Under the pieces are notes generated by a model, which was given only the letters and a program-made list of their open reading frames with translations, was not told the DNA's origin and did not search any database. Both the position numbers and the translations under genes were made by a program. Shown one piece after another: positions 5,742-29,764 of a stretch of 64,000 bases of DNA (the first letter of the stretch is position 1; every line of letters starts with the position of its first letter). The DNA comes from Ancylobacter crimeensis (GTDB taxonomy: Bacteria; Pseudomonadota; Alphaproteobacteria; Rhizobiales; Xanthobacteraceae): assembly GCF_023016805.1 (NCBI RefSeq), contig NZ_JALKCH010000001.1, forward strand, positions 62,001-126,000, given 5' to 3'.

Positions 5742-8192
5742 TCAGCCCGGCTCGAAGAAATAGAACCACAGGTTGAGGTCCGCGGCGCGCTGGGGGTCGG
5801 TGAGCGATTTCAGCGTGGCGATCGTCTTCTTCAGGGTCGGGTCGCCTTCGGGGAAGATCGAGAACAGGTTGTTCGGGGTCTGGAAACGCAGCAATTCGCC
5901 ATTGAGATAGCGTCGTCGCCGGAGATTGTCCTCCTTGTTCCAGATGCAGTCGCCGCGCACGGTGATGAAGCCGCGCGTGGAGCCTTCGTCGAAGCCGAAC
6001 TCCCCCTCGATGGGTGCGCGGCCGAACTGGTGCGTGGCGGCGGTTTCGAGGAAGCGACGCACCAGCTTCGAGGGTGTCCAGGTCAGCGACCGGCTGTCGA
6101 TCCTGACGGTGCCGGAGAGATGGACGAGGCTGGTGCCGAAGGCGATTGCGGGCGGCCGTAGGACGTTGGTGCGGGTGCTCCATTCGGCTTGCGCGTGGTA
6201 ACCGGGCGGATAGGGCATCTCGACCGACAGCCGGGCGATCGGCTCATAACCGCGCACGGCGGTGGCGATATCCTCGTTGAACTCGACCGAATAGCCGCGC
6301 ATGAGCTCCTCCGGCTTCACGGTGTCGTTGTTGTCGAGCGCGCGGCCTGAAGCCAGCGCGACCACGCGTAACGGCACGATGAAATCGGTAGCCTGCTGCT
6401 TGAGCAGCGCCGCGCACAGCGTGTCGAGCGCCTCCTGCACGGTCTTGACCCCGGACAAGCCGTCGCAGGCGCCGTCCTGGTAGCTGATGTCGGAGGCGGT
6501 GAGGTTGGCGATTTCCTGGCAGAGCTTGTCGAGCGCGGCCTGCACATCGGTCTGGTCGGCGAGGCCGCTGCAGGCACCGGGCTGATAGCCGATGCCGGAG
6601 GCAAGGGCGAGCTGCGCGCTGTAGCGCAGCGTCGGCGTGTCGGTCTCGCCCGGAGCACCGGCCAGCAGCGTCGCCGTGACGTTCTGGGTCGGCTGGGCGG
6701 GATCGGCGGCGAGCTTCCAGTTCGCGCTGGCGATGCCGTCGGCATCCGACAACACCTCAATGCTGGTCCCGCTCACAGCGCCCCCGGCGCCGGTGCCGGA
6801 GAGTTCGCCGGTCGCGCCCTCCAGCGCGAAGCGCACGCGGGCACCCGCGACCGGAAGCAGGCCGATCCGTATGATGGCGCGCAGCGACGCCGGCAGCGCG
6901 TCGGTGAGGGTGGCGGCGCCCGGCCCGGTCGGCGGACGGATGCTCTGGCCGTCGCCGCCAGCAAAGTCCAGCTCGCGCGCCGAGGCGAGCGGCGCGAACA
7001 GGTGGCGGCAGTCGAGCAGTGAGGTCGCGTCGACCACGCCATCGGCGACGGTGAGCATGCCGAGCCGGGAATAGACGACCAGCGGACCGGCGGGCGGCAG
7101 AGGCACGCCGGTCGGCACGGTGGGATCGAGATCGGCCAGCACATAGCGAGCCGGGGCGATCCAGTAGTCGCCGCGGCGGAAATCGGTACCGCCGAGGGTG
7201 AAGACGAGGCCGTCCAGCGCAATTTCATAAGGCGCGGCCAGCGTCACCAGATCCTGGCTCCACAGCCGCACCCGGCCATTGGCGCCGGCTCCGGCGGCGC
7301 TGGCGAGCACCAGCACGTCGCCTTCCACATCGTCGATGCGCGTCAGCGGGCCGAAGGCGGCGGCGTCATAGGGCGCGCCGTCGGGCAGCAGCTCGGCATA
7401 GCTGCCCTTGGCGAAGACCGGCATGCCGTCGCGCGAGGCGGCGTCCAGCGTCACCCGGTTGCCGCTCACGGCGCTGATGCGGGCGAGTTCGCAGGCGTTG
7501 TTGCGTGAGACCTTCACCTGCAGTCCATCAAGCGCGAAACGGCCGGGTGTCAGCGCGGTGCCGCCATGCACCTCGCAGCGATAGAGCAGGTTCTCGAGCC
7601 GGGAGTAGCCGGCCTTTTCCGTCAGCTTGCAGGGGTCGCTGGAGACCGGTGCGGTGGATTGCGTCACCGTCAGCGTGCCGCCGCTCGGCGCCGCCATGGC
7701 CTCGAAAGCGGCGTTCGGCGCGGAGCAGGTGTCGCCAGCCCCGGCGTCGAGAATACCGATCTCGGCACGGATGATGGTGCGGCCGGCGGTATCGGCATCG
7801 CCCAGCGCCGGATCGCGCAGCTTCGGCTCGTCGACACCGGTGATGTGGTCGACGGTCGCCTTCAGATAGACCAGTCGGCGCCCGGTTCCGCTCACATTCG
7901 GCAGCACCGTCTCGCTGTGGTTCTCGACCTGAAGGCCGTCCACATAGAGGCGGCCCGCGCTCAGGCGGATGGGGCCGCCGGGCGCCGCGGGCGGCAGCAG
8001 GCCGAAGCCGCCGCCGATGCTCGGGGCGGCCTCGGCGCCGAGCGTGTCGATCGTCTCGGTCTCGATCCTCCGCAGCATCGCGTCGCTGGCCTCGCCGAGA
8101 TCGGCGTCGGACAGGACCCGTCCCTGCTGGATGGTGACCTGCCGGACGGAGCGGACCGCGTCGAAGCTGACGCGCGAAAAATCACCCTTCAT
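5742..8192 (-). CDS. eCIS-associated DUF6519-family protein with Ig-like segment and tandem repeats
   Basis: This 816-aa protein is the last gene of the injection-system operon. It opens MKGDFSRVSFDAVRSVRQV followed by IQQGRVLSDADLGEA, the N-terminal signature of DUF6519 proteins found in eCIS and tail-like loci. Residues about 440-530 read like a bacterial Ig-like/invasin domain (VAGARVRFALEGATGELSG, then a DADGIASANWKL motif). Two tandem repeats follow at about 532-565 and 567-600, each with GYQ/SYQ, GAC-x-GL and LC. The C-terminus is beta-rich. A peripheral baseplate, fibre or adhesin-like part is plausible, but no function is established here. Its ATG overlaps the upstream stop (ATGA), and GGAGAAA serves as the ribosome-binding site. 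Confidence 0.8.
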   Translation of the reverse strand: MKGDFSRVSFDAVRSVRQVTIQQGRVLSDADLGEASDAMLRRIETETIDTLGAEAAPSIGGGFGLLPPAAPGGPIRLSAGRLYVDGLQVENHSETVLPNVSGTGRRLVYLKATVDHITGVDEPKLRDPALGDADTAGRTIIRAEIGILDAGAGDTCSAPNAAFEAMAAPSGGTLTVTQSTAPVSSDPCKLTEKAGYSRLENLLYRCEVHGGTALTPGRFALDGLQVKVSRNNACELARISAVSGNRVTLDAASRDGMPVFAKGSYAELLPDGAPYDAAAFGPLTRIDDVEGDVLVLASAAGAGANGRVRLWSQDLVTLAAPYEIALDGLVFTLGGTDFRRGDYWIAPARYVLADLDPTVPTGVPLPPAGPLVVYSRLGMLTVADGVVDATSLLDCRHLFAPLASARELDFAGGDGQSIRPPTGPGAATLTDALPASLRAIIRIGLLPVAGARVRFALEGATGELSGTGAGGAVSGTSIEVLSDADGIASANWKLAADPAQPTQNVTATLLAGAPGETDTPTLRYSAQLALASGIGYQPGACSGLADQTDVQAALDKLCQEIANLTASDISYQDGACDGLSGVKTVQEALDTLCAALLKQQATDFIVPLRVVALASGRALDNNDTVKPEELMRGYSVEFNEDIATAVRGYEPIARLSVEMPYPPGYHAQAEWSTRTNVLRPPAIAFGTSLVHLSGTVRIDSRSLTWTPSKLVRRFLETAATHQFGRAPIEGEFGFDEGSTRGFITVRGDCIWNKEDNLRRRRYLNGELLRFQTPNNLFSIFPEGDPTLKKTIATLKSLTDPQRAADLNLWFYFFEPG

Positions 8193-10499: not shown

Positions 10500-13037
10500 T
10501 CATGGTGCAAATCCCGTGACCGTCACGTCGGCGGCGGCTAGGGTGAGATATTCCGCACCCGCTGCCGCAGTCCCCACGATGCGTGCCCCACGCGCACCGA
10601 GAATCTCCGTGTCGGCGGGCTCGGTATCGGACGAGAGATGATCCACCCGCGCCGCGACGACGCCCGGCACGGCCTGCACCACGGCCAGCAGTGTGCTCTT
10701 CGCCAGCGGATGTGCGAAGCTGCGGCGGTCGGGTGCGCAGGCCTCGGCGAGCGCGGCCTTCACCGCGGCCTCGACATCCGCGCGCGGAAAGGCGGGGCCG
10801 CTCTCGAGCGCCAGCGTCGCCCGCGCATGGACCTGCTGCGCCGCGAGCAGGCGGAACGGGCGACCGGGCGGGGAGGCCGCCGCCATGGCAGAGGCGAGAT
10901 TGGCGTAGAGCGTCGAGCCGGGCGCGATGGCGGCTCCCTTAGGTCCCGCGACGGTGACGTGCACCACCTCGCGCTGGCCGACCCAGAGCGGACTCGCCAG
11001 CGCCTTCGCCACCCCGCCATAGGCGCGGGCGAAGGCGGCATAGTCGGCCAGCGAGACGATGCGGCCGAGCGAAACGATGCGCACCGGCGCGTTGAGGCGG
11101 GCCTCCTCGATCGGTTCCGGGTCGACCCCGCCCTCGGCCGGCAGCGGATTGGTGACTCCGGAGAAGCCGAGCACCATGGTCATCGGCAAGGTCAGCCGGC
11201 CAGGCGCGAGGTTGCCCGCCGCTCCCCCGCCGACCCGATAGACCGCGGAGACATTGTTGTCTGCGGTGCGCAGCCGGCCGGCGAAGCGTACCACGCTGCG
11301 TCCGTCCGGCGTGGTTTCCAGCGCATAGGCGGGGCTGGTGTCGGGAAGATCGTAAAGCATGGGTTCGCGCGGGCGCAGAGCGTCATCCACCCGCACGTCG
11401 AGCGCCGGCGCATACCCCGCCACATTCGGCGCCTGCACGAAGGTCAGCCCGGTCTGCCGGAGCGCGAAACCCTGGTTGCGCTTGCGCGCGTCGCCGGAAC
11501 CGAGAATCTCGCCGATCGGCAGGCCGGAGCCGGCCGGGCGCATCGCCGCGGTGGGCGTGCGCGTTTCGCCATGGGTGGCGGCAACCGCATTGCCCAGCAC
11601 CACGAGGTCGCCGGGCGCATAGTGACGGGCGAGTGCCCGGGTGAAGGTGACGACCGGCGTGCCGCCCAGCTCGCCAGTGCTTTCGACGATGGCGGCCTCC
11701 GCCGTCACCATGCCGTCGGAGACGCCCTGCACCACCACCAGCCGCCCGGGCGGCAGATCGGTGGCGGCGGCGAGCTCGATGGAAAAGCCGTTTGCCACCG
11801 GCTGCTGTGTCTCATAGGGCACCGGGGCGAGATGCAGGGCCTCGGTCTCGATGAAGACCGCGGTGGAGCGCACCGCATTGTCGAAAGCACCCACCGGCCG
11901 GTCGAGGGTGAGGCGCGAGACCTTGGCGCTGACCCCGAAAGCCGAACGCGAGACCTCCGCGACGGCGATGATGCGGAACAGCGCCTCGGCGGCAGGCGAC
12001 TTGAGCACCACGTGACGGCCGACCATCGCCTCGGGATAGACGGCGTCCAGGTCGATGATGGAATCGTCATGCGCGCCTGGAATTTCCGGCTCGGGCAGCT
12101 CGATCTTGAAGCTGCGCAGGCTCGCCTTCAGAGCCGGCCATTCCTTGCGGGTGGGCGCGACGTCGTCGCTCTCCAGGATCGGCGTCCGCAGCACACGCTG
12201 GCGCACCAGCCGGTCCAGCATCACGAATGGCGAGGCGTTGTAGCCGAACAGAGAGCCGCGGCGGGAGAAGATCGCGATGCGGGTATCGGCGGCCGCGCCC
12301 AGCACATCGAGCGGAGCGTCGAGGTCGACAGTGATGTGGGCCTGCGGCGGCAGCGGCTGCGTGGTCATCGCCGCGATGCGCGCAAGCTCGAAGGTGGCGG
12401 CACCCGGCGCGTCGCCGATGGTATGGATGAAGCCGATGACATCGCCGATCCGGCCGGCGATGAGGGTTTCGCTTACCCGGATCGAGCCGGTGCCGGCAGC
12501 CGGAGCCAGCAGATGCCAGCGCTTCGCCGGGACCGCGTTCCATGACGGACGCGCTTCCAATTCGTCGGACGTTTCGAACAGCACCGGCGCCTCGTCCGGC
12601 CCCGGCACGGTCTGCACCTTGGAACCGGCATGGATCGGCACCTTCTGCGGCGCATCGGGAAAGTCGCTGAGCGTGAAGGTGAGGGTGGTCGAGGCGGAAA
12701 TGGCGGGACGGGCAGCATACCCGACCTGCGCCGCGAGCCCGCGCACGGACCCGACATCGGTGGCGATGCCGATATAGGCCTCCGTCTGGAAGCGCTCGCG
12801 GTAGAAGCTCAGCACATGCAGGCTCGCCGCCCAGGCGTCGATCAGCGCAATCGCCGGGTCGTCATCCGCGCGGGTTGTGAAGGAGACGAGTTCCGGGCGC
12901 GTGGCGATGGCATCCAGCATGCGCCGCTTGAGCGCCTGGTGGGTACGCGAGGGCGCCACCATGCCGCGGCGGCCGGGCGTTCCCTGACCCGCCGCGCAGG
13001 TGCCCCCGCAGCCGCACTCGCACGTCGCGCCGCTCAT
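10500..13037 (-). CDS. Putative baseplate assembly protein (eCIS baseplate J-like, first copy)
   Basis: 845 aa, matching the large 'putative baseplate assembly protein' family that contains a gpJ-like core. Recognisable parts are DDDPAIALIDAWAASLHVLSFYRERF near residues 58-83 and the C-terminal baseplate-J region, with FSGVTNPLPAEGGVDPEPIEEARLNAP followed by VSLADYAAFARAYGGVAKA. In contractile systems these proteins form the wedge around the spike. The N-terminus is unusual: MSGATCECGCGGTC has four Cys in nine residues and looks able to bind metal or form disulfides. The gene starts four bases before the stop of the next baseplate gene (ATGA) and sits beside a second J-like protein. Confidence 0.88.
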   Translation of the reverse strand: MSGATCECGCGGTCAAGQGTPGRRGMVAPSRTHQALKRRMLDAIATRPELVSFTTRADDDPAIALIDAWAASLHVLSFYRERFQTEAYIGIATDVGSVRGLAAQVGYAARPAISASTTLTFTLSDFPDAPQKVPIHAGSKVQTVPGPDEAPVLFETSDELEARPSWNAVPAKRWHLLAPAAGTGSIRVSETLIAGRIGDVIGFIHTIGDAPGAATFELARIAAMTTQPLPPQAHITVDLDAPLDVLGAAADTRIAIFSRRGSLFGYNASPFVMLDRLVRQRVLRTPILESDDVAPTRKEWPALKASLRSFKIELPEPEIPGAHDDSIIDLDAVYPEAMVGRHVVLKSPAAEALFRIIAVAEVSRSAFGVSAKVSRLTLDRPVGAFDNAVRSTAVFIETEALHLAPVPYETQQPVANGFSIELAAATDLPPGRLVVVQGVSDGMVTAEAAIVESTGELGGTPVVTFTRALARHYAPGDLVVLGNAVAATHGETRTPTAAMRPAGSGLPIGEILGSGDARKRNQGFALRQTGLTFVQAPNVAGYAPALDVRVDDALRPREPMLYDLPDTSPAYALETTPDGRSVVRFAGRLRTADNNVSAVYRVGGGAAGNLAPGRLTLPMTMVLGFSGVTNPLPAEGGVDPEPIEEARLNAPVRIVSLGRIVSLADYAAFARAYGGVAKALASPLWVGQREVVHVTVAGPKGAAIAPGSTLYANLASAMAAASPPGRPFRLLAAQQVHARATLALESGPAFPRADVEAAVKAALAEACAPDRRSFAHPLAKSTLLAVVQAVPGVVAARVDHLSSDTEPADTEILGARGARIVGTAAAGAEYLTLAAADVTVTGFAP

Positions 13038-15472
13038 GCTCCGCCCCTCAGTTCGAGGTCCATTATCCCGTTCTCCGGGACGTTGGGATCGCTATCGAGC
13101 CGGAGGATCTCGAAGTCGGCCGGCACGATGACGCCGCGCGCCAGTTCACCCTGATCGGCCCGCCCACGTCGGCGGAAGGTTTCGGCCGTGACCGAGGCGA
13201 CGCCTGGCACGGCCATCGCCGCCGCGATCAGACGGGAGAGGTGCAGAGGCGAGCCGAACGTGAAATTGTCCGGGTGGAAGAAGGCGAGCGTGCCGTCCGT
13301 CAGCACGCCGGAGCCGAGCCGCTGTTCCAGCCGCTGGCGTACCGTGGCCCGCAGCGCGCCCGGCGCAACGCAGACCGCGAGCTTCACCTCCAGCGGCACG
13401 GGGATCGCATCGCGCAGGAACAGGTCGACGCCGCACAGCCGGAAACGGTCCAGATAAGCGAGGATTCGGGCCCGGAGCCCCGGTGCCGTCTCAATCGAAC
13501 CGCCGCCCACACGATCCAGATAGATGAAGGCGGTGCGCCATGAGCCGGTCCAACGGATCTGCGCGCGGGCGGAAGCGACTTCGGGATGGCGCTCGGCGAC
13601 CTCGACATAGTCGAGCTCGGTGACGGCGCGTTCCTGGACCATGAAAGCGCGCGGCGCTTCGATGCGCGCGCGCTTGAGATCAAGCGGCGCGACCCCGCCG
13701 GCGGCGGTCAGCGGGTTGGTCACGGCGCGAATGCCCGGCACCCGCGTCACCATCTGCGCCAGCACGTCGGCGCCGACATTGCCGTCGAGCGGAGCGCCGA
13801 TGCGGGCGGTGACCTTCATCGACAGGCCGGGCTCCGCGGACTGGCCCATGATGTCGTCGCCGAAACGCAGGCGCAACGAGCCGTCATTCTCGGTCTCGGC
13901 GACGAAATGCCGGTCGAAGCGCTCGCTGGAGAACAGATCGCGCCGCGAAACCCAGGGCTTGAAGCCATCGGAGAGGGTGATCGCGGGCAGGGCGGCGGCC
14001 GGGTCATTGGCGAGCACGGCACTCACCGGAAGGGCAGTCGCAGCGGAGAGGTCGAGCGGGGAGGCGCGACTTACCGGGCCCACCAGCAGAAGAGGATTCC
14101 ACGCCCCGCTTTCCGGCGCTTCCGGTGGGTCGAGCTGGGGGGTAAGGGCGCGCGTCGCGGCGGGGCTGGCAAGGTCGCGCACCGGAAGCGTGAGACCGTG
14201 ATCGGCCAGCACGACATTGCCGCGTGCCTCGGCGCAGATGAAGGGCGCCGCCGCCGCATCGTCCGCCGCCGCATCCGCCGACAGGATGAGGTCGAAGGGC
14301 AGCGCATCGCTCGCTCCCCACTCCACATCGTAGACATCGACCCCTTCCACGGGATCGTTGCGAAGCTTCACCATGGTAAGGCGTACGGCGTGCCGGCGCA
14401 GGCGGCTCGCATCCGCCGGCAGGCCGGTGGTCGGGCTGGCGATCTCGCGGAGCACCAGAAAATCGCCGGCCGCCAGTTCCGCCGCAGATGCGCCGGCCGT
14501 GAACACGCGGCGCAGGCTCGCCGCGGTGGCGCCGTGGGGCAGCAGGCAGCGCTCGTCGGACCATGTGTGGAAGGCGAGCCGAGAGTTCCCCGCGTAGAGC
14601 GTCAGGGCCTGCATCGTCTCGAAGGTGATCGGCGCGAACGGTGCCCGTTCGGCGAAGGCGTCCGGATCGATGGTCGGGCCGCGATCATCGCCGCGTACGG
14701 TCACCGGCGTGCCGGCAGGAAGAATGGCGCCGTCCGGGCCGGCATAGTCGATCTCGATGAAGGTGCGGGCATTGGCGCCTTCATGCACCTCGTAATCGAG
14801 CAGGCGGGCGTGGCGAGCGACCGAGATGCGGCTGCGCGCCCGGAACAGGTCGGTCTCGTTGGCGAGCGCGTCCAGCCGGTAGCTGAAATGGTCGGCGACA
14901 TAGGCCAGCGGCTCGACCAGTGCGACGAGGTGATCGACCGGGGTGTCGTCGGCAAATCCGGGTACCAGTGCTGCGATGCGGTCGAGCATCAGCCGGCGGA
15001 AGCCCTGCCAGTCGCGGCTGCCATAGTCGAGGTCCGGCGCCGGAACGGCCGGATCTACCGGCTCGGCGCGCACCTCCTGGCAGTCGAAGGGGGAAGGGCA
15101 GTCGACCTTGAAGCTGAACGCGACATGCGCGCTCTCCGGGTCGAAGCCCGCAGGCGTCCCACCGCCCGGCGCGACGAGGCTAAGGTGGTAGGTCGAGAAG
15201 TCGGTCGGCTGGCCGGGCTGGAGCGTAATCTCGAGAACGCTCGGATCAGTGGCCGAGACGCCCGCGCCGATGACGTCCGGAGGGGGATAGCGCACGCCTC
15301 CGGTTATCGCGATGTTCGTGCCGTCGAGCGTGGCGAGCCCGTCGGGCTTGACGAAGACCAGCCGCAGCGAGACGCCGCCATTGACCACTTCCAGATAGTC
15401 GATGCCGTTGAGCGGCAGCGGCATGAGCTTTTCCCGGCGCCGGCCGGTGAGACACTGGTAGTGCTCGCTCAT
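13034..15472 (-). CDS. Putative baseplate assembly protein (eCIS baseplate J-like, second copy)
   Basis: 812 aa from the ATG at 15472 (MSEHYQCLTGRRREKLMPL), which has a GGGGGA ribosome-binding site. The longer reading to 15526 adds no conserved residues. The middle (RLMLDRIAALVPGFADD, then VDHLVALVEPLAYVADHFSYRLDALANE) and the late part (AVTNPLTAAGGVAPLDLKRARIEAPRAF, then VTELDYVEVAERHPEVASARA) are typical of wedge proteins with a gpJ core. Together with the neighbouring 845-aa paralogue it probably makes the two-component baseplate wedge, as Afp11/Afp12-like pairs do in the antifeeding prophage. The C-terminal FTFGSPLHLSRLIAAAMAVPGV is another shared motif. Confidence 0.88.
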   Translation of the reverse strand: MSEHYQCLTGRRREKLMPLPLNGIDYLEVVNGGVSLRLVFVKPDGLATLDGTNIAITGGVRYPPPDVIGAGVSATDPSVLEITLQPGQPTDFSTYHLSLVAPGGGTPAGFDPESAHVAFSFKVDCPSPFDCQEVRAEPVDPAVPAPDLDYGSRDWQGFRRLMLDRIAALVPGFADDTPVDHLVALVEPLAYVADHFSYRLDALANETDLFRARSRISVARHARLLDYEVHEGANARTFIEIDYAGPDGAILPAGTPVTVRGDDRGPTIDPDAFAERAPFAPITFETMQALTLYAGNSRLAFHTWSDERCLLPHGATAASLRRVFTAGASAAELAAGDFLVLREIASPTTGLPADASRLRRHAVRLTMVKLRNDPVEGVDVYDVEWGASDALPFDLILSADAAADDAAAAPFICAEARGNVVLADHGLTLPVRDLASPAATRALTPQLDPPEAPESGAWNPLLLVGPVSRASPLDLSAATALPVSAVLANDPAAALPAITLSDGFKPWVSRRDLFSSERFDRHFVAETENDGSLRLRFGDDIMGQSAEPGLSMKVTARIGAPLDGNVGADVLAQMVTRVPGIRAVTNPLTAAGGVAPLDLKRARIEAPRAFMVQERAVTELDYVEVAERHPEVASARAQIRWTGSWRTAFIYLDRVGGGSIETAPGLRARILAYLDRFRLCGVDLFLRDAIPVPLEVKLAVCVAPGALRATVRQRLEQRLGSGVLTDGTLAFFHPDNFTFGSPLHLSRLIAAAMAVPGVASVTAETFRRRGRADQGELARGVIVPADFEILRLDSDPNVPENGIMDLELRGGA

Positions 15473-15532: not shown

Positions 15533-15895
15533 TCACGGCCGGTCCCGCCGAAACTGGATGCGCTGCGTCTCGCTTTCGCCGAACGGGGCATAGGCGATGG
15601 TCACCTCGAGCGTCGTGTCGGCGGCTTCCACCTCCACTTCGCGCACATCGACGATGCCAGCGAGGTGCTGGGTCAGCGCGCCGTGAACGGCAACCTGCAA
15701 GGCGGCGGCAAGGGTTTCGTTCAGGCCCTCGAACAGCAGCTCGGTGATCGGAGTGCCGAGGTCGGGGCGCATCACCCGCTCGCCGGGGATGGTGAAGAGC
15801 AGCATCTCGATCAGTTCGGTGACGCGCCGTTCGACAGTGGGCACGGCACTGCGGCCGGTGGGAGCGGGGTTGAAGGGAAAGCCGAGCGTGGTCAT
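15533..15895 (-). CDS. GPW/gp25-family baseplate protein
   Basis: 120 aa, the usual size of gp25-like proteins. The typical ERRVTELIEMLLFTIPGERVMRPDLGTP motif occupies about residues 20-47 and is followed by LLFEGLN. T4 gp25 and its relatives start sheath polymerisation from the baseplate wedge. The start is ATG 15895 (MTTLGFPFNP), which overlaps the stop of the PAAR-like gene as ATGA. The frame continues upstream only as Arg/Gly-rich sequence. Sixty bases separate it from the next gene of the operon, one of the few gaps in the locus. The C-terminus (IAYAPFGESETQRIQFRR) is complete. Confidence 0.93.
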   Translation of the reverse strand: MTTLGFPFNPAPTGRSAVPTVERRVTELIEMLLFTIPGERVMRPDLGTPITELLFEGLNETLAAALQVAVHGALTQHLAGIVDVREVEVEAADTTLEVTIAYAPFGESETQRIQFRRDRP

Positions 15896-21800: not shown

Positions 21801-22204
21801 AGGCCGGCCTGCTGCACGGTGTGGGCCAGCTCATGCGCCAGCAGATGCCGGCCGGCTGGCGTCTCCGGCTGGTAGCGGCCGGTGCCGAACACGATGTGAT
21901 CGCCCACCGCATAGGCGGCGGCATGGACGCTGCGGGCGGAATCGTGGGCGCGAGCGTCGTCATGGATCCGCACGGTGGAAAAGTCGCGCCCGAAGCGGTT
22001 CTCCATGTCCGAGCGCACGTCCGGCGCCAGCGCGTTGCCTCCGCTCGCCAGTGTCGGCTGCACGTGGTCGAGCGGGCCCAAAGTGCCGGTGGCGCTGCGC
22101 TGGAGGAAGGGCACGTGACCCTCGCCGCGCGGGCTGACACGAAGCCCGTCGCTGCGGGCGCGCTCGGCTACGGCGTGACCGGCGACGGCATGGCGCGCGC
22201 TCAT
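18818..22204 (-). CDS. eCIS-core (DUF4157) metalloprotease-like protein with giant beta-rich C-terminus; candidate cargo
   Basis: 1128 aa from ATG 22204 (MSARHAVAGHAVAE), which overlaps the preceding stop as ATGA. Residues about 60-160 form a DUF4157 'eCIS core' domain: MENRFGRDFSTVRIHDDARA, then AYAVGDHIVFGTGRY and HLLAHELAHTVQQ. HELAH at 124-128 fits a zinc HExxH motif, and EHEANRAAD (152-160) could supply a third ligand. Residues about 170-520 are unassigned. A Pro/Ala linker (about 520-556) leads to a long series of amphipathic beta-strand pairs (about 560-1080), then a helical tail. DUF4157 marks many eCIS-associated proteins, often loaded effectors. Cargo is my leading reading; a structural or measuring role is not excluded. 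Confidence 0.8.
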   Translation of the reverse strand: MSARHAVAGHAVAERARSDGLRVSPRGEGHVPFLQRSATGTLGPLDHVQPTLASGGNALAPDVRSDMENRFGRDFSTVRIHDDARAHDSARSVHAAAYAVGDHIVFGTGRYQPETPAGRHLLAHELAHTVQQAGLQRRALDGFESGDRPTLEHEANRAADAVTTGRSLPALTQLSVPHLSRIEEGGAGPTDPGPVVNSPELLAKLAAIPNVTSAALGQSSEKDRQLAVEIATFASDNPKGPADSINALTKKRGQEKSLVYVAPATASKVGKLVKETGFDTGFYTGAWLSRYGYADLRSLGKKLQQWRLTDAGKAEATYGAHIDKVAARFALGYLTGTGSSATDANVDHMVEKQVQGQSIAENMQLLNAAENQKAGSALNTKIVETANAVLAAVADPSIKTIRISFGEIVYPDTGAKDGLRRIEELLKGGSLKGSPTTKMEGVETDLQAGGSAATIHIGKGKTEIANNGSNDLARALIPTLNLLTYNRTSAAGAKTETISAAINPARLSAVVPKTGEMLTINAVESSGAPAPAGTLPPPDDPAAAPATAATTRAARKLSFPDKSDYNFVFPYLSPGKFTKFGIGEKNQLVAEGTITPSLRFLKTLSVKLDGDSFGLVGNLGPENFQPPFNGLRVTRADLSIALAPIFKPAGNFGFEIGPAGKPYLLGEAEAGLEGTNFVATGTLKGQNIPGIDNASGKVRYSLSEGWRGEVTASTSRIPRTKQAQVTLGFTSNAQATRFYAGGGITFDVGSGKDLSIRANYVGGRMVYSGTLDWEKPIKLVDRVSIDVTYDGETLTGSTKVPVKYVRAGTTFSGDLDVTYTRKGEGEGKFSGTGKLGVKTSKFEGYLILNVSPENVISGEGQIAFSFNESIRPTIGVKLAPDGKITVLGKIELTRPVVLFPGKGAERDLIKLNFDFIIPGPFPGLADPMVHLGAGVKFTYGIGPGQIVNTVIEGSFDPFEEDKNARLKFTSTFEVPGHIGLAGILEAGLGIAVLGGIGAKVHGGIRIEPGFLVKLTTAVPIVAEYANGNFSFEGRVELHGGLTLEMDVKLYAHIEALGGAAEKNFDYSVKKYSYDAAQQMKLTLAKLGYSTETGVKWPSFDDISIEPKNLDPVPMIKRVANDAKRALGA

Positions 22205-22497
22205 CGCGATCCTCCCTTTTCCGGAGTGCCGATCTCGCCGGCCTTGCCGATCTGGTCGACGATGGCACGAGCCAGCGCAGCGCCCGCCTGTTCGATCCGC
22301 GCCGGAGCGGGCAATGCGCCGCCATCGCGGCGCATGCGGGCAAGGTTGCCACTGTCGCGTGCCGCGGTTGCGATCTCCGGCGCAAGGCGGGCGATCTCCC
22401 GCTCCATCGCGTCCACCAGCCGGCGCGCATCGCGGCTGCCGAGGCCGGTGACCGCGACCTTGTCGATGACGAGGTGGATGCGGGGCGGCGCGCTCAT
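22201..22497 (-). CDS. Small conserved eCIS-type protein of unknown function
   Basis: 98 aa (MSAPPRIHLVIDKVAVTGLG, then DARRLVDAMEREIARLA). The N-terminus predicts a beta-strand followed by an amphipathic helix; the rest is Ala/Gly/Arg-rich. I recognise no enzymatic motif. Similar small proteins sit next to the AAA+ ATPase and the DUF4157 gene in other eCIS loci as far as I recall, so it could be an assembly factor or cargo adaptor (inference). It overlaps the ATPase gene upstream and the DUF4157 gene downstream by four bases each, so it is very unlikely to be a spurious frame. Confidence 0.7.
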   Translation of the reverse strand: MSAPPRIHLVIDKVAVTGLGSRDARRLVDAMEREIARLAPEIATAARDSGNLARMRRDGGALPAPARIEQAGAALARAIVDQIGKAGEIGTPEKGGSR

Positions 22498-24332
22498 GCA
22501 AAGCCCCCGATTTCCAGTTCCGCGACCGGGCGCTCCAGTTTGCGGAACTCGCTCCGCAGAGCGGCCGCCACATGCCGCCGCCCGATCACCTCGCCGTCCT
22601 CCGCGGCCAGGAAGGCGGCGTTCAGCGCGACATTGCGTATTGCCCCGCCGGTGAGCGCAAAGCGCGCCATATCCTCCACGGCCAACCCGTCCATCGGCGC
22701 GGCGGCGGGAAAGGCGCGGCGCCACAATTCGACACGCTCGGCGTGGTCCGGCGGGGGGAAATCAAGCACGAAGCGGAACCGGCGCAGAAACGCTTCGTCG
22801 ATCGCGGATTTGAGGTTGGTGGTGAGGATGGCGACACCGCGAAACGCCTCCAGCCGCTGCAGCAGATAGCCGGTTTCGGCGTTGGCGTAGCGATCATTGG
22901 CTTCGGCGCCGGGACTGCGGCGGCCGAGCAGTCCATCGACCTCGTTCACCACCAGCATGGCACCGCCGCGTTCCAGCTCGTCGAACAGCCGGCCGACCTG
23001 CTTGGGCGTCTCGCCCACCCATTTCGACTGGAGCTGGCTGAAATCGGCTACCACCATAGGTAGCGCGAGTGCTTCGGCGACGACCTCTGCGGCGAGCGTC
23101 TTGCCGGTTCCGCTCGGGCCGGCGAACAGCGCGATCATGCCATGCCCGCGGGTGCCGCCGAGCCGGTCGAAACCCCAGTCGCCGAATACCGTTGCCGCGT
23201 GCCGCACCTGCCGCACCAGCGACATCAGGTCTTCGCGCAGGGGTTCCGGCACCACGAGGTCCGCGAAGGAGGCGCGTGGTTCGACGATGCGGGCGAGCGC
23301 GCCGGGCTCGGGCCAGGCGGCCCTTGCCGCAGCGGACCAGAACAGCCGACCCGCTTCCGCCGTGCTCGACGCGCGCTCCACTGCCTCGCGCACCGAAATG
23401 GCGGCGCGCGCAATGGCGGGGGCATCAAGGTCGAACTGCGCGGCGGCACGCTCGACGGAGCCGTTGAGCTTCGTTGCCGCGCCGGGACCCAGCGCCTCCT
23501 TCCACCGCGCCACCGCCTCCTGTCGTGGAAAGCCGCGCGTCGCGAGGCGGTGGGTCGGGCGGCGCAGGCCGGACGGCGCGCGATCCCCGGCAAGGACCGC
23601 CGGCACCGGCAGGCCGTCGAGAAAGGCGGCGAGGGTTTCCTGCTGATGAAAGTCGGCCGGCGTCTCCGCGATCAGCGCGAGCGGGTGCAGGGCGCAGTCC
23701 CGGGTGACGAGGCGCTGCAGGTCGAGAATGGCTTCCGAGCGCGCCGCGAGGCGCGCGGGCTCGATGCGGAACGGGCGCAGGCCGAGTGCGGCGAGCGCCG
23801 TGGCGATGCGCGGCAGGCCGAGCCGCCAGGGTGCAACTAGAACGGGCGGATCTGCAGCGAGATTCATTATGCCGAGTCCATCGGCCATCCCTTCGAGCTC
23901 GGCGGCTTCCGGTGCCTCCGGTGTCGGAACCGGAAGCAGAACCGGCTCCAGCACCTCGTCGAGCACGACCAGTCCCGCCATGGCATCGGTCACCGGCTCA
24001 GTGAGACGAAAGCGCGTGGCCGCGAGCGTCGCCCGGTTCTCGGCGCGCAGGATGCGCCAGCGCCGCAGGCTGCCTGCATGGGAGAAGGCACCGGCCTCGG
24101 CTGCGCCGAGCGCGGCCTCGAACAGCCAGACCGGAATGCCCGGCGCGGCATCCTCGGGCGTCACCGCCGCAGTCAAGCGGGTTAGGTCGATCTCATGCTC
24201 GACCGCGAAGGCAAGACGGATCACGCCGGTTTCGAACGGTGTCAGTCCGAAAGCGTCCGCCAGCCGGATAAGGGCGGCAGGAGGCTCGGCGCCGGCGCGT
24301 TCTCGCAGTGCGGCGAGGAGGAGGGGGTCCAT
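22494..24332 (-). CDS. eCIS AAA+ ATPase (Afp15/Pvc15-like) with altered Walker B
   Basis: 612 aa. The C-terminal third is an AAA+ module: Walker A GPSGTGKT at 405-412 (Lys411), the pore-like region QLQSKWVGETPKQVGRLF, a Walker B-equivalent AMLVVNEVDGLLGRR, sensor 1 VAILTTNLKS and the arginine-finger region IDEAFLRRFRF. The N-terminal about 370 residues are helical with repeated Ala/Leu stretches, as in eCIS ATPases. In Afp/PVC this ATPase acts in particle assembly. The oddity is Asn463 where Walker B normally has the Mg-coordinating Asp; the catalytic Glu464 is kept. Its ATG shares a base with the upstream stop (TGATG). Confidence 0.93.
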   Translation of the reverse strand: MDPLLLAALRERAGAEPPAALIRLADAFGLTPFETGVIRLAFAVEHEIDLTRLTAAVTPEDAAPGIPVWLFEAALGAAEAGAFSHAGSLRRWRILRAENRATLAATRFRLTEPVTDAMAGLVVLDEVLEPVLLPVPTPEAPEAAELEGMADGLGIMNLAADPPVLVAPWRLGLPRIATALAALGLRPFRIEPARLAARSEAILDLQRLVTRDCALHPLALIAETPADFHQQETLAAFLDGLPVPAVLAGDRAPSGLRRPTHRLATRGFPRQEAVARWKEALGPGAATKLNGSVERAAAQFDLDAPAIARAAISVREAVERASSTAEAGRLFWSAAARAAWPEPGALARIVEPRASFADLVVPEPLREDLMSLVRQVRHAATVFGDWGFDRLGGTRGHGMIALFAGPSGTGKTLAAEVVAEALALPMVVADFSQLQSKWVGETPKQVGRLFDELERGGAMLVVNEVDGLLGRRSPGAEANDRYANAETGYLLQRLEAFRGVAILTTNLKSAIDEAFLRRFRFVLDFPPPDHAERVELWRRAFPAAAPMDGLAVEDMARFALTGGAIRNVALNAAFLAAEDGEVIGRRHVAAALRSEFRKLERPVAELEIGGFA

Positions 24333-25615
24333 CAGAGCACCACCTGCGGTTGGAGGCCCTGCGCCCCCGGCGAAGGCTCGCTGATGACGCCGTCGATCGA
24401 GACGCGCAGCAGATAGCTGCCGCGCGGTACCTGCTCGACGGTGAAGGCCGGAGTTGCGAAGCTGTCCGGCACTCCCGCTCCGGCTGCGGGCGGCACGAAC
24501 AGGCTGGTTATTTCGTCCCCGCTGGTAGCGTGGGTGAGGTGCAGCACGACCTGCTGGCCGCGTTCTGCCGCGGGCGACAGCGTGACGCCCACCGTGCCGG
24601 AGACGCGTGTCGGATCCGCCGGCAGGGGCACGACGTCGACCAGCGGCGCGGAGGCCTGCGGCCGCACTAGGACCGACACGCTGCTGGCGCCGATCTTGAT
24701 GACCCGGCCATTGACGCTCGCACTGCGCGAGATCTCGATGAGATGCGGGCCGGTCGTAGTCGTGTCCGGCAGGCGCAGCACGGGTTCGCCGGGACGGCTC
24801 GCCGCGGCGTCGAAGGTGAGCGGCGTGCCGTCGAGGCGCGCCGCCAGACCGTCGCCGAACAGGCCGACGCCTTCGACCAGCAGGCTCGCACCGGGCACGA
24901 TGGAGACACGCCTGCCATTCGCGACCGCTGTGATGCGCTCGATGGACAGACGCGAAAGCGGGACGAGGGAGAGGCCTGCGTCACTCACCGGCGGCGCTTC
25001 CAGGCTTGCGCGCTCGTCCTCCAGGAAGACGGTGGTGACCAGATAACCGGCCGAGGGCCGGTAAGGTGCCTGCGTCGCCGTCCAGATCTTGGTCATGGCG
25101 TCGATGTCCAGCGATTGCTGGGTGACGGTGACCTGCTCGACCTGATCGGCCAGCGCTTCGCCGGCAAGAATCTTGCGTTTGGGGTTGGCGTCGCTTGCCA
25201 GCTTGCCGAGCGCGAAGCGGATGAGCGGGCGGGGCACGATGGCGGCCTGATGCAGCGCGTGCATCGCTACGCCGAGGCCGAATTCGCGATCGATGTCGGT
25301 GCCGTGGGCGCTGAGCAGATAATGCAGATCGAGCACCAGCGGATTGCTGTTGCGGCGCCGGCCGCGGGAATCGCGCACCGGCTCGCACGCATTGCGCCAG
25401 GCCGGATTGGGGGTAACGTGGTGGAGGAACAGGTTGACGCCGGTCGGCTCGACCACGGTGCCGCCCGCGGCTGGTGGCGGGGCCGGGCGCGGTGGTGGGC
25501 CGAGCGTGGCACCGAAGGACGGGAAGCTCAACGCCTGTGCTGCCCGCACCACCGCATCTTCGATGATGAAGCGCAGGATCTCGCTGGTCGCGGCGATCGC
25601 GAGCGCGGCGGTCAT
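24332..25615 (-). CDS. Pvc16/DUF4255-family tail terminator protein with C-terminal IPT-like domain
   Basis: 427 aa from ATG 25615 (MTAALAIAATSEILRFIIED). The N-terminal about 200 residues match the Pvc16 N-domain (DUF4255): VNLFLHHVTPNPAWRN, SNPLVLDLHYLLSAHGTD and LGVAMHALHQAAIV are typical. Afp16/Pvc16 caps the sheath-tube and sets its end. The C-terminal half (ITAVANGRRVSIVPGASLLVEGVGL, then LDGTPLTFDAA and LIEISRSASVNGRVIKIG) reads as one or two Ig/IPT-like beta domains. The start overlaps the Pro-rich gene as ATGA; the end overlaps the ATPase start. Confidence 0.88.
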   Translation of the reverse strand: MTAALAIAATSEILRFIIEDAVVRAAQALSFPSFGATLGPPPRPAPPPAAGGTVVEPTGVNLFLHHVTPNPAWRNACEPVRDSRGRRRNSNPLVLDLHYLLSAHGTDIDREFGLGVAMHALHQAAIVPRPLIRFALGKLASDANPKRKILAGEALADQVEQVTVTQQSLDIDAMTKIWTATQAPYRPSAGYLVTTVFLEDERASLEAPPVSDAGLSLVPLSRLSIERITAVANGRRVSIVPGASLLVEGVGLFGDGLAARLDGTPLTFDAAASRPGEPVLRLPDTTTTGPHLIEISRSASVNGRVIKIGASSVSVLVRPQASAPLVDVVPLPADPTRVSGTVGVTLSPAAERGQQVVLHLTHATSGDEITSLFVPPAAGAGVPDSFATPAFTVEQVPRGSYLLRVSIDGVISEPSPGAQGLQPQVVL

Positions 25616-26397
25616 GAGCCGCCTCCGGAGCGCCGGGCCAGATAATCCGCCAATGGCGGCGCTGCATGCTCGCGCCGCTGCTCCAGTGCCGGACGGATAG
25701 GGGCGACGGGCTCGGGTCGGGTCAGGCGGATGTCGAGCACGCCGATTGAGATGGTGATCTCGGGCGCGGCCTCCGCCGGAGTGGAGATGGTGTACTGTTC
25801 TGTCGGAGCACTGGCACGGCGGGGTTCGACAACGAAACGGGGCGGCCACGGCGCATCCTCATGCGGCGTTTCCCGGCCCGCCGGCGGAGATGGCTGCGGG
25901 GCTGTCTCCAGCGCGTCGAAGGTGTGGTCGTCAGGACGCGGCTTTCCGGTCTGCCGGGGCGGCGGCGGGGAGGGCGGTGCATCCGGCTGCGCTTCCGCCC
26001 GTGCCGGGCGCTCCCGGACGGTCGGCACCTCCATCCGCTCGATCCGGTGCAGATGGCGTTCCACCACATGCTCGGTGGTCGTCTCGCGGCGCTCCACCTG
26101 CACGATGCGCTCGACCGGGTGCTCCAGATCCGGCGCGGGCGGTGTCACCGGCGTCGGCTGCGGGGCGCGCTGCGGCGCAGGCTCCGTGGCGTTCTCCATC
26201 GGGAGCGACGCGGACGAACGGGCCATCGGCTGCATGGCGGGGGAGGGTGGAGACGGCGAAACCTCGTTCTCCGCCTCGATCTCGCCGAACCCGCCTTCGC
26301 CGCGATCTTCGGCCTCGAAACGGAAGCGTGGGCGCGGGCGCAGTTCCGGTGTCGCGCCCCGCGCCTGCGCCACCAGCCGCTCCAGATAGCCGCTCAT
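25612..26397 (-). CDS. Pro-rich eCIS protein with conserved ends, function unknown
   Basis: 261 aa from ATG 26397. The ends look conserved: MSGYLERLVAQARG at the start, and EITISIGVLDIRL followed by PPLADYLARRSGG at the end. The centre is low-complexity, rich in Pro, Ala, Glu and Arg (PAPQRAPQPTPVTPPAPD, PPSPPPPRQTGKPRPDD), with a charged stretch VERIVQVERRETTTEHVVERH. eCIS loci commonly carry such a disordered protein beside Pvc16. Its role is not established; a scaffold, measuring or linker function would fit the tether-like architecture (inference). It overlaps both neighbours by four bases. Confidence 0.72.
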   Translation of the reverse strand: MSGYLERLVAQARGATPELRPRPRFRFEAEDRGEGGFGEIEAENEVSPSPPSPAMQPMARSSASLPMENATEPAPQRAPQPTPVTPPAPDLEHPVERIVQVERRETTTEHVVERHLHRIERMEVPTVRERPARAEAQPDAPPSPPPPRQTGKPRPDDHTFDALETAPQPSPPAGRETPHEDAPWPPRFVVEPRRASAPTEQYTISTPAEAAPEITISIGVLDIRLTRPEPVAPIRPALEQRREHAAPPLADYLARRSGGGS

Positions 26398-27086
26398 GCC
26401 CTTGCCCGCTCCACATAGCGCCGGCGTCGGGATTCCGGCATGGCGAGCACGTCCTGTTCGCGCCATCCATAGGCGCGGGCCAGGTGATGGACGTCCTCCT
26501 CCAGTCGCGCCACGGCCGTCGCGATCTCGCGCCAGAGCAGACCGGCGAGATCGAGAGCCGGCGTCATGGCCGTACCGCAGGTCGGGCAAGCGGCATCCAG
26601 CACGATGGAGCCCAGCGGGTCGGCCTCCTCGAAGGCCGCGGAAACGAGGGCCTGTAGCGCGGGATCGTCGCCGCGCGCGCGGCCGCGCGGCTCGATGAGG
26701 CAGGCCTCGATCAGCGCCGGCAGCGGGTCGCGGCGCCGGGCGGCGGCCTCGATCTCCCCCATGGTCGGCAGACGAAACGCCAGCAGGACGCCCTCATGCT
26801 CGATCTCCACCCGATCCGGCGAGAGCGCGGCTTCGAAAGCGCGGCTGTCGAGCTCGAATTCCGCGCATTCGCCGCAGCCGGGGCAATCGGCGACGCAGGG
26901 CATCTGAGTGCCGAACAGGCGCCGGCGCAGAGCGAGCAGGCGTCGGGTACGCGTACCGGGCGTCTCGTCCGTCACGCTTGCGTCAGGACTGTCGAAGGTG
27001 AGCAGGGCATGGGTGCGTGCGACCGGGCGGGCCGTCGCCGCGGCGTCGAACAGATCGACCAGCTGCTTGGGTTCGAAGCGGGGCAT
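26394..27086 (-). CDS. T4 gp26-like baseplate/hub assembly protein with zinc-ribbon-like Cys motifs
   Basis: 230 aa from ATG 27086, with a GGAG/GAGG site upstream. The middle (LLAFRLPTMGEIEAAARRRDPLPALIEACL) resembles the T4 gp26-related baseplate family, in which a chaperone-like protein helps build the hub. Two Cys pairs, CPGCGEC near residue 68 and CPTCGT near 167, suggest a zinc ribbon. The C-terminus (LLWREIATAVARLEEDVHHLARAYGWREQDVLAM) is characteristic: HxLAxxYGW with 'DVLAM' recurs in related loci. It follows the tube gene after an 80-base gap and overlaps the Pro-rich gene. Confidence 0.8.
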   Translation of the reverse strand: MPRFEPKQLVDLFDAAATARPVARTHALLTFDSPDASVTDETPGTRTRRLLALRRRLFGTQMPCVADCPGCGECAEFELDSRAFEAALSPDRVEIEHEGVLLAFRLPTMGEIEAAARRRDPLPALIEACLIEPRGRARGDDPALQALVSAAFEEADPLGSIVLDAACPTCGTAMTPALDLAGLLWREIATAVARLEEDVHHLARAYGWREQDVLAMPESRRRRYVERARA

Positions 27087-27712: not shown

Positions 27713-29764
27713 CTAGCGCTGCGCCTGACCGGCGAGCTGTTGCAGCGTGACGAAGACGAACTCGGTCGGCTTGAGTGGGGCGAAGCCGATGACGACATTT
27801 ACCGTGCCGAGATTGATGTCGGCCTGCGTCGTGGTCTCGGCATCGCACTTCACCAGATAGGCGTCGCGTGCAGAGCGGCCCTGGAACGCGTTCTGCCGGA
27901 ACATGCCCTGCATGAAAGCGCCGACATTCATGCGGATCTGGCCCCAGAGCGGCTCGTCATTCGGCTCGAAGGTTACCCAGGTGAGCCCACGGCGCAGACT
28001 CTCCAGGATGTAGAGCGCGGTGCGGCGCACGGGGATGTATTTCCACTCGCTCGCCTCGTCGTCCGAACCGGCGAGCGTGCGCGCGCCGAAGGCGACCGAG
28101 CCATAGACCGGGAACTTGCGGAAGCAGTTCACCCCCGCCGGATTGAGCAGGCCGTGCTCGTCGTCGTTCATGATCACCGCTGGCGCGTAGACGCCCGAAA
28201 TGGCGGTGTCGATCCCGGCAGGCGCCTTCCACACCCCGCGATTGGCATCCGTGCGGGCGATGACGCCGGCCATGGCGCCTGAGGGAGGAAAGGCGCGAAG
28301 CATGCCCGGATTGAGCGGATCGGCCAGCTTCAGCCGTGGGAAATAGGCCGCAGCATGCGTGGTGCGTACGCTGAAGCCGGTGGTCTTCCATGCCTGAGCC
28401 TGGAACACGTCCTTCACATTGGGCGGCGTGTCGATCAGCAGGAAGGCGCGCCTGTCTTCGCACACCGCGCGCGCGGCGTCATAGATCGAGGCGTAGTCGG
28501 AATAGAACGCCTCGTCCGGGCTGGAAGCCTTCGCGCGCACGGCATCCGGGATGCAGACGAGGTTGAAGATGTCGACCTTCCGCAACTCTTCGATGCCGGC
28601 GAGCATGGAGGCCTGTGTCGGCGGCCCGCTGCCATCGGTGCCGGGTGCGATGCCTGCGTCGTCGGTCTGGGAAAGGCCTGCCTGATATTTCCGTCCGAGC
28701 CGGTAGCGCGAGACATTCCGGGCCGGCGTGTCGAGCTGATAGAGCGTCAGCAGCTTGTCGCCGGCGGCCGGTTTGCTGCCCTCGCTCAGCGAGATGATGC
28801 CGTCGGGTGCCGGATGTTCGACGATGCGGCCATTGGCGGCGGTGGTCTGGAAGGTGAGCACCTTGGTGCGCAGCCGGAGCACCTGTCCGAACGGGGCGCC
28901 GAAATCCAGAACCTGCGCCTCGATGGCGACGCCGGTGTTGAGCTGAGACAGCTTCTGGTTCACCACCTGCTCGATCGCCTTGCCGAGGCCGAGATGGGTA
29001 CGGGGGATTTCGTCGTTCTGCTTGAACAGGTCGAGTTCGGTTTCGCCGAGCAGGTCCACGGACGAGCCGTCGGGCAGTATCTTCTGCAATTGGACCTTGA
29101 TCGAATAGTCCTCGGCCGCTTTCTTGCTGGTGGAGGCGAAGAAGTCCGGCGCCTGCTTGATCTTCAGTACCGTGCCGGTGGTGAGCGGCGCCTCGACATT
29201 TGCGGCGAAATCGACGGAGACGAGGTTCGAGCCGAGATCGGGATCGTTCACGATCGCCTTGCCGTAGCGCAGGCTTGAAGCGTCGGTCGAAAGGTCCGAG
29301 AAGCTCTCGCGAACTCCGGTTGCACCATGGGTGGCGGTGAGCGTGAAGGTCTTCGCGGTGACGGCATCCGCACCGGTGGTGGAGGGCGGCGCCTCGATGT
29401 CGAGGAAGATGTCGTTGCCCGAGACGCCGGAACTCAGCGCAGTGACGGCGAGCGCGGCGGCGGTACTGTTCTTCGCGCTGGTCTTGGAAAAGGCGGCCCC
29501 CTCGCGCGGCACCCGCACGATCACCGCCTCGCCGCCGCCGTTCTGGAAGAAGTGCAGCACGCCGTAGGACAGTTCGCTGTCGGAGGCGAGGCCGCCATGG
29601 CTGCGTTCGAAGTCGGGGAAACTGAAGATGCGGATCGGCCGGTCATCGATGCCGTTGCGGGTCGGGCCGACAAAGGCGGTGACCGCGGTCGGCACGCCGG
29701 CGATGGATCTGACGCCGCTTGAAATCTCGCGCGTATATACGCCCGGATAGGTTCCGCGGAGCAT
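27713..29764 (-). CDS. eCIS contractile sheath protein
   Basis: 683 aa, the first gene of the operon. The start MLRGTYPGVYTREISSGVRSIAGVPTAVTAFVG is typical of tail-sheath proteins (P-G-V-Y, then G-V-x-T-x-x-x-A-F-V-G). The conserved C-terminal handshake region includes VNCFRKFPVYGSVAFGARTLA, then EWKYIPVRRTALYILESLRRGLTWVTFEPND, ending near LKPTEFVFVTLQQLAGQ. The extra middle part (about residues 130-330) is the variable surface domain. AGGGGGA precedes ATG 29764. The long 5' region in front is probably where the whole system is controlled. Confidence 0.96.
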   Translation of the reverse strand: MLRGTYPGVYTREISSGVRSIAGVPTAVTAFVGPTRNGIDDRPIRIFSFPDFERSHGGLASDSELSYGVLHFFQNGGGEAVIVRVPREGAAFSKTSAKNSTAAALAVTALSSGVSGNDIFLDIEAPPSTTGADAVTAKTFTLTATHGATGVRESFSDLSTDASSLRYGKAIVNDPDLGSNLVSVDFAANVEAPLTTGTVLKIKQAPDFFASTSKKAAEDYSIKVQLQKILPDGSSVDLLGETELDLFKQNDEIPRTHLGLGKAIEQVVNQKLSQLNTGVAIEAQVLDFGAPFGQVLRLRTKVLTFQTTAANGRIVEHPAPDGIISLSEGSKPAAGDKLLTLYQLDTPARNVSRYRLGRKYQAGLSQTDDAGIAPGTDGSGPPTQASMLAGIEELRKVDIFNLVCIPDAVRAKASSPDEAFYSDYASIYDAARAVCEDRRAFLLIDTPPNVKDVFQAQAWKTTGFSVRTTHAAAYFPRLKLADPLNPGMLRAFPPSGAMAGVIARTDANRGVWKAPAGIDTAISGVYAPAVIMNDDEHGLLNPAGVNCFRKFPVYGSVAFGARTLAGSDDEASEWKYIPVRRTALYILESLRRGLTWVTFEPNDEPLWGQIRMNVGAFMQGMFRQNAFQGRSARDAYLVKCDAETTTQADINLGTVNVVIGFAPLKPTEFVFVTLQQLAGQAQR

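Follow-up and report, generated by a model that had tools for sequence, protein, structure and literature searches.

A predicted extracellular contractile injection system with a probable DUF4157 cargo protein and a probable DUF6519 tail fibre in Ancylobacter crimeensis

Extracellular contractile injection systems (eCIS) are syringe-like, protein-injecting particles of virus-tail descent, and are known in many soil and water bacteria. A cluster of 18 genes (g01 to g18) of this type is located at positions 5742 to 29764 of a 64,000-nucleotide stretch of the Ancylobacter crimeensis genome (RefSeq assembly GCF_023016805.1, contig NZ_JALKCH010000001.1, positions 62,001 to 126,000, forward strand), which is referred to as the window. 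As judged from its genes, this cluster very probably encodes a complete eCIS particle that would load, target and inject the DUF4157 protein g08. The sheath, tube, cap, ATPase, spike, tip, wedge and DUF6519 proteins appear to be intact, and their genes are arranged in the order common to other eCIS loci. The genes are listed below in this order.

27713..29764, minus strand: g01, contractile sheath, 683 amino acids (aa); Pfam Phage_sheath_1C and Phage_sheath_1 above cut-off; the sole PF04984 sheath in the genome
27167..27697, minus strand: g02, inner tube, 176 aa; Pfam Phage_T4_gp19, E 1.2e-43; solved structure 7adz chain, E 3.3e-14
26394..27086, minus strand: g03, probable baseplate or assembly protein; T4_baseplate below cut-off; position kept in relatives
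25612..26397, minus strand: g04, proline-rich protein, 261 aa; no family match in Pfam or NCBIfam
24332..25615, minus strand: g05, Pvc16-type cap or terminator; Pfam Pvc16_N, E 1.6e-34
22494..24332, minus strand: g06, AAA ATPase, 612 aa, Pvc15-like by place and family; Pfam AAA above cut-off
22201..22497, minus strand: g07, small protein, 98 aa, at the ATPase/cargo junction; family profile; no Pfam, NCBIfam or PHROG match above cut-off
18818..22204, minus strand: g08, DUF4157 cargo protein (most likely), 1128 aa; Pfam eCIS_core, E 1.6e-30, the sole eCIS_core match in the genome; eCIS core at residues 59-134, HNH-like motif at ~346-372, amphipathic beta part at ~556-1060
18172..18846, minus strand: g09, CIS tube-initiator-like protein; CIS_tube below cut-off; position conserved
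17852..18172, minus strand: g10, LysM-like protein, 106 aa; no Pfam match; homologues at the equivalent place in relatives
16741..17865, minus strand: g11, spike hub, 374 aa; no family match; assigned by position and homologues, 53% to the Streptomyces plasmid protein
16235..16744, minus strand: g12, spike; Pfam Phage_base_V
15892..16227, minus strand: g13, PAAR-like tip; DUF4280 above cut-off, PAAR_motif below cut-off
15533..15895, minus strand: g14, gp25-like baseplate wedge; Pfam GPW_gp25
13034..15424, minus strand: g15, baseplate wedge; NCBIfam TIGR02243, E 6e-62; solved match, 9gtp chain
10500..13037, minus strand: g16, baseplate wedge; Pfam Baseplate_J; solved match, 9gtp chain
8189..10510, minus strand: g17, gpI/Tail_P2_I-like protein; TIGR02242 below cut-off, E 2.7e-4; no Pfam match at E 0.1
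5742..8192, minus strand: g18, DUF6519 (eBAP5-type) protein, probable tail fibre; Pfam DUF6519, E 2.3e-16, 59.9 bits against a cut-off of 22.4

All 18 open reading frames (ORFs) are open and follow one another on the minus strand between 29764 and 5742, in agreement with the initial annotation, which described an intact 18-gene eCIS running in one direction with mostly overlapping genes. At ten of the 17 gene junctions, the neighbouring genes overlap by 1 or 4 bases. Longer overlaps follow g08 (29 bases), g10 (14 bases) and g16 (11 bases), and gaps follow g01 (15 bases), g02 (80 bases), g12 (7 bases) and g14 (108 bases). The start codon of g17 as drawn is TTG. Eleven of the 18 genes exceed a curated family cut-off, either of Pfam (sheath, tube, Pvc16_N, AAA, eCIS_core, Phage_base_V, DUF4280, GPW_gp25, Baseplate_J and DUF6519) or of NCBIfam (TIGR02243). 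The CIS_tube, T4_baseplate and TIGR02242 matches are all below cut-off, and the remaining genes are identified by weaker matches or by position and homologues. The hub g11 and the LysM-like protein g10 match no family in Pfam or NCBIfam, and are identified from their position and their homologues in other eCIS loci. The parts listed in the initial annotation are present at these different levels of support; a fibre was not listed, and g18 is a probable one. The sheath, tube, spike, baseplate and AAA ATPase genes all lie within this single cluster, which contains both of the eCIS marker domains, Pvc16_N and DUF4157 (eCIS_core). Whole-genome searches detect one sheath gene and one eCIS_core gene, and both are in the cluster.

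The GC content of the cluster and that at its third codon positions (GC3) match those of the flanks, so that composition shows no sign of transfer. The GC content of the intergenic stretch 29900-30110 upstream of the sheath gene is 0.46, as compared with 0.68 in the cluster, and this AT-richer stretch is likely to be a promoter region. A sigma-70-type promoter is not found upstream of g01. A tRNA-Ser (gga) call at 23908-23989 on the minus strand lies entirely within the ATPase gene g06 and is probably spurious.

The g08 protein is most likely the cargo. Its eCIS core contains HELAH, an HExxH sequence near the N terminus, and its gene is located in an eCIS operon. DUF4157 proteins mark eCIS cargo according to two papers (PMC8213781; PMC11297309), the latter of which counts 983 of 1130 predicted DUF4157 cargo proteins without a further annotated domain. 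The cargo slot of the relatives is occupied by DUF4157 proteins of widely differing length. In Novosphingobium plasmid pSA1 (L029), eCIS_core proteins of 2417 aa (27516-34769) and 453 aa (34766-36127) are encoded in one cargo slot, and the 453-aa protein gives an OmpA match below cut-off. In two partly overlapping genome samples, 397 from the order and 398 from the phylum, this genome is the only one with a match to the g08 sequence beyond the core, and relatives of g08 and g16 are not detected in viral contigs.

Alignment of g08 with three homologues reveals an invariant motif, V-D-H..E-K-Q..G-x-S..N-x-Q-L-L..N-Q, which we take to resemble that of an HNH nuclease. The three homologues weakly match Pfam HNH, with E values of 0.021, 0.035 and 0.28, all below cut-off. 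These results are consistent with a function of g08 as a nuclease effector, which is the least certain of the assignments. The hydrophobicity of residues 556-1060 alternates in the manner of amphipathic strands, with a z score of 9.3 at 180 degrees relative to 100 shuffles, as compared with -0.6 to 0.6 at 160-180 degrees for residues 1-200 and 201-540. When a profile of this beta part is compared with solved structures, only an NADH-quinone oxidoreductase subunit is matched (E 0.014 and 0.043), and this match is taken as chance. The beta part is common (24-25%) to a protein encoded on Cereibacter azotoformans plasmid p2 (L060, 14401-18210), whose gene is the second one behind an ATPase gene and belongs to a cluster that includes baseplate genes. 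The Cereibacter protein contains neither the eCIS core nor the HNH-like segment, and its terminal part weakly matches Endonuclea_NS_2, the DNA/RNA non-specific endonuclease family (E 0.017, below cut-off). This result weakly suggests that one beta module is joined to different nucleases. An HNH-like DUF4157 cargo with a beta module is not described in the papers retrieved on HNH, DUF4157 and contractile injection; one of these, on PAAR proteins, names HNH and DUF4157 in separate contexts.

Counterparts of the small gene g07 are located at the ATPase/cargo junction of other loci, and ten of them were aligned, with identities to g07 of 16-51%. A tblastn search with g07 alone detects only the two nearest relatives. 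When each sequence and its close kin are removed from the profile, the right frame ranks first in 10 of 11 loci with E values of 5e-14 to 1.1e-3, the last of which is marginal, and the Streptomyces one is missed; the next-best background matches in these profile tests reach down to E 0.003. The profile of all 11 sequences is positive for three of seven further loci (L029, L044 and L049; E 3e-4 to 9e-18) and detects no family member in L048, L060, L004 and L034. The g07 family is thus represented in 13 of the 18 loci tested, and is without a name in Pfam, NCBIfam and PHROGs. From its position, g07 might be guessed to be a loading adaptor. A role as a cargo-specific immunity protein is unlikely, because the counterparts accompany different cargo and one of them is found in a Paracoccus cluster without an annotated or matched DUF4157 gene. 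In L049, a g07-like frame (11670-12500, minus strand) is located between two eCIS_core genes, not directly behind the ATPase gene.

According to a 2026 paper (PMC12923769), DUF6519 is eBAP5, an eCIS fibre anchor domain that occurs with a Tail_P2_I adaptor and is correlated with Actinobacteriota, and systems with DUF6519 fibres represent a previously missed subtype. The g18 protein fits eBAP5 in three respects: it has the domain, its gene follows g17, and its N-terminal part varies less than the remainder, although g17 itself is related to the adaptor only by the sub-cut-off TIGR02242 match listed above. Because g18 carries DUF6519, it is probably a tail fibre, and the cluster probably has a targeting fibre. 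Neither g18 nor g11 gives a credible match among solved structures.

The detectable genes are collinear in 15 of the 17 other loci compared, several of which are incomplete. The exceptions are G022, in which the DUF4157 gene follows the fibre gene, and G235, in which the matches to the two wedge genes cross. The nearest relatives are the eCIS of a Rhodobacterales metagenome-assembled genome (MAG; L003) and a Rhizobium MAG (L002). The Rhodobacterales MAG keeps g01-g16 with best-segment identities of 40-84% (above 55% for 12 of the 16), including 62% for g08 over nearly its full length; its contig stops before g18, and that of the Rhizobium MAG stops inside g08. Among the loci of other organisms, these two are the only ones in which g04 is matched by tblastn. 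The plasmid of Streptomyces sp. NBC_00299 (NZ_CP108040.1) contains 18 annotated genes in equal order, among them a small gene and those for the DUF4157 and DUF6519 proteins, with best-segment identities of 30% for g08, 43% for the sheath and 53% for the hub. It differs from the window in that the producer belongs to another phylum, the cluster is plasmid-borne, and the counterparts of g04 and g07 correspond by position only, with no sequence match. Clusters of this kind are found on at least seven plasmid records. Within the family, eCIS_core is detected in 12 of 296 genomes sampled. Within the genus, 5 of 30 genomes sampled have a close ATPase relative, and eCIS_core is found in those same five; the four other ATPase-bearing genomes are distant (39-42%), indicating that presence is patchy. 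The cluster adds to the known eCIS, given its equal gene order in other loci and the published related systems.

In 14 of the 17 loci, the g08 sequence beyond the core is matched at a coverage of 0.02 or less, and 13 of these 14 match the core. The three loci in which it is matched are those of the Rhodobacterales MAG, the Rhizobium MAG (in which the contig end cuts it) and the Streptomyces plasmid. The position of g18 is reached in eight of the 17 loci, the other nine stretches stopping short of it. In five of the eight, only the N-terminal half is matched (0.72-1.00 of this half and at most 0.01 of the rest). In Paracoccus, a third of the N-terminal half is matched, the gene being cut by the stretch end, and in G022, only 0.15 of the second half is matched. 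The NBC_00299 plasmid, which covers g08 beyond the core and the C-terminal half of g18 to 0.99 each (g18 identity 38%), is the only relative matched across the whole of both proteins. Thus, the chassis persists while the cargo and fibre tip change, with the exception of the Streptomyces plasmid cassette. This cassette is close to the window in the sheath tree described below, and may have cargo and tip in common with it simply because the cassette descended as a whole; a single such pair is not enough to infer that cargo and tip are linked.

These results are most simply accommodated by the following mechanism. Loading of the tube with g08 would fall to the ATPase g06, perhaps together with g07. 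The gpI-like protein g17 would hold the g18 fibre, which would pick the target membrane, and contraction of the sheath would push the tube and spike through it, freeing g08. Among the least certain steps are the last ones, in which g08 may act as a nuclease through its HNH-type motif, and its long amphipathic beta part may help travel in the tube, or crossing of or insertion into the membrane. No candidate immunity gene is found between g07 and g09, the only interval in which one was searched for, so that the target may be another cell type, or the producer's own cell as in Streptomyces, rather than a sister bacterium. Several points weigh against this mechanism. The particle and the expression of the operon are deduced from genes, and the label of g18 as a probable fibre depends on one domain and one paper. 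All of the HNH matches are under the Pfam cut-off, and g08 itself gives none. The Cereibacter protein, the fifth in this set of related proteins, lacks the motif segment. A profile search of the PDB with the motif region detects no nuclease, its one match, to Alba (E 0.048), being taken as chance. The models of g08 are of low confidence (mean pLDDT 35.7 from 3 sequences and 37.4 for the middle part) and have helices, not a beta-beta-alpha fold, at the motif. In addition, residues 201-540 of g08 also give a modest periodicity signal at 140 degrees (z 2.8). A broader proposal is speculative and probably does not hold in full. In it, g08 would belong to a modular class of eCIS cargo that combines one beta module, for passage through the tube or target membrane, with interchangeable nucleases (HNH-like here and DNA/RNA non-specific-like in Cereibacter); g07 would be the general loading adaptor of this lineage; and the tip shared with the Streptomyces plasmid would reflect one target for producers of two phyla.

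A decayed or satellite prophage, of which the cluster would be the tail, was considered as an alternative, because all of its tail parts are phage-derived, its sheath and tube match PHROG tail families, and phage sheaths are detectably related to g01 (481 phage records). The initial annotation regarded the cluster as an eCIS and not a prophage tail, a view that would be contradicted by a phage head or lysis gene in the neighbouring DNA or by a sheath and tube within a Myoviridae prophage clade; neither result is obtained. A Pfam scan of 32 flanking ORFs detects no phage head, packaging or lysis gene; 29 of these ORFs match other families, and three are without a match at the limits used, two of them lying opposite better ORFs. 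Terminase_6N is matched only once in the genome, and on a different contig. The sheath tree contains 26 rows of C-terminal parts (the window, 19 other eCIS and six phages from the 481 matching records) and is rooted at the midpoint. The window forms one group with the Rhizobium MAG, the Rhodobacterales MAG and the NBC_00299 plasmid (support 100/98), and this group is nested in a phage-free set of 18 eCIS rows (90/93). All six phage sheaths are outside this set, and their union in a single group has a support of only 75/38. The Mitsuaria and Haloferax eCIS rows and two Streptomyces phage rows are also outside the set, near the base, in an order that is not settled. The sheaths of Streptomyces phages GiJojo and BRock (L062, 478-2418; L063, 334-2277) match g01 with 137-139 bits, above the other four phages compared. 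Among 17 matches of g01 to solved structures, CIS sheaths are the best, with chain 8bky at the top (220 bits), and the pyocin sheath ranks last. Together with the presence of Pvc16_N and eCIS_core, these results largely refute a prophage origin of this kind, which is very improbable, and bear out the eCIS assignment. The best solved match tentatively suggests that the sheath may belong to lineage II. A gene for TssK of a type VI secretion system (T6SS) is located on a different contig (C19, 243585-244850; L071), and no TssJLM or TssK family is detected in the window ORFs scanned. The genome therefore also has T6SS-type and phage-type genes that are separate from the cluster, and two contractile systems, a T6SS and an eCIS, may coexist in it.

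It is also conceivable, if somewhat unlikely, that the system is not released as a particle, but is membrane-anchored or cytoplasmic and acts on the producer or on touching cells, as do the Streptomyces CIS and the haloarchaeal T6SS-like CIS. The best solved relatives of the sheath, 8bky and 8bl4, are presumably Streptomyces CIS, the only relative that matches g08 and g18 over their whole length is encoded by a Streptomyces plasmid, and there is no immunity gene candidate next to g08. On the other hand, a DUF6519 fibre-type protein is present, and the cassette contains no clear gene for a membrane anchor, although hydrophobic peaks are seen in g11 (136-154, 2.16) and g08 (978-996, 1.94), and less pronounced peaks in g06 and g16. 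An intact cluster that is silent, or one in which g08 is a structural, tape-measure-like part rather than a toxic cargo, is unlikely. Such a cluster would agree with the lack of a sigma-70-type promoter upstream of the sheath, with the lack of a recognisable classical tape-measure gene in the cassette, and with the place of g08 directly before a tube-initiator-like gene, near that of Tme in its cluster. However, all 18 frames are open with a GC3 that fits the flanks, the DUF4157 proteins in this slot vary greatly in length among the relatives, and the beta pattern of g08 is unlike the tape-measure proteins in the papers cited here, which describe them as helical.

As stated in the initial annotation, the cassette lies between metabolic genes. 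A TRAP transporter, an OtnK-like kinase and a 3-hydroxyacyl-CoA dehydrogenase are encoded on one side, and an amine oxidase, a LysR regulator and purine degradation on the other. The purine degradation cluster (34948-46571) encodes urate oxidase, HIUase, OHCU decarboxylase, xanthine dehydrogenase with XdhC, and a permease. At the left junction, synteny breaks sharply at 5284-5439 in all five genus relatives compared, which are five of the nine other genomes with 83-87% identical dehydrogenase genes. In one of these relatives (L035), the DNA past the break corresponds to scattered sites of the window genome. On the right side, the amine-oxidase stretches from seven of the ten other genomes with this gene match the window in that gene only, and in LysR as well in five of the seven. 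A clean insertion site is rejected on both grounds, and the junctions do not define the mode of arrival. The flanks have no credible match in the Rhizobium and Rhodobacterales MAGs, and tblastx of the flanks gives many short matches that are taken as noise. The organisms whose DNA resembles the flanks point to an alphaproteobacterial genome.

The sheath and wedge of the S. coelicolor CIS are presumably the best solved matches, 8bky and 9gtp, and the solved structures matched by the sheath and tube also include chains of Afp, PVC and further CIS, some of these assignments being our assumption. Afp, PVC, MAC, AlgoCIS and tCIS share core sheath and tube homology with the window, which differs from them in having one sheath gene, one gp19-type tube gene and a different fibre class. 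An Afp14-like tape measure is not recognised in the cassette by Pfam. The S. coelicolor CIS (type IId) has no conventional fibre gene, Sco4242 being a putative one, according to two papers (PMC10066040; PMC10020575), whereas a DUF6519 protein is present here. Another paper (PMC11126660) describes, just upstream of the baseplate genes of the S. davawensis CIS, a DUF4157 protein with endonuclease activity, Tme, and a group of CIS across distant phyla, including Proteobacteria, with a long DUF4157 gene and conserved synteny. From this source, the two systems are alike in their DUF4157 gene, and the endonuclease domain of Tme is a precedent for a nuclease cargo; Tme has more than 2000 aa, coiled coils and a C-terminal EndA-like nuclease, whereas g08 has 1128 aa, a central HNH-like motif and a beta-rich end.

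The chassis of the cluster is thus a known one, and it is the HNH-like DUF4157 cargo and the probable targeting fibre that make it a useful example. With a single cargo gene, a single fibre gene and no second eCIS detected in the genome, the cluster would be a clean test case for the roles of the cargo, the fibre and g07. The match of both cargo and fibre tip with the Streptomyces plasmid provides a testable claim on target choice.

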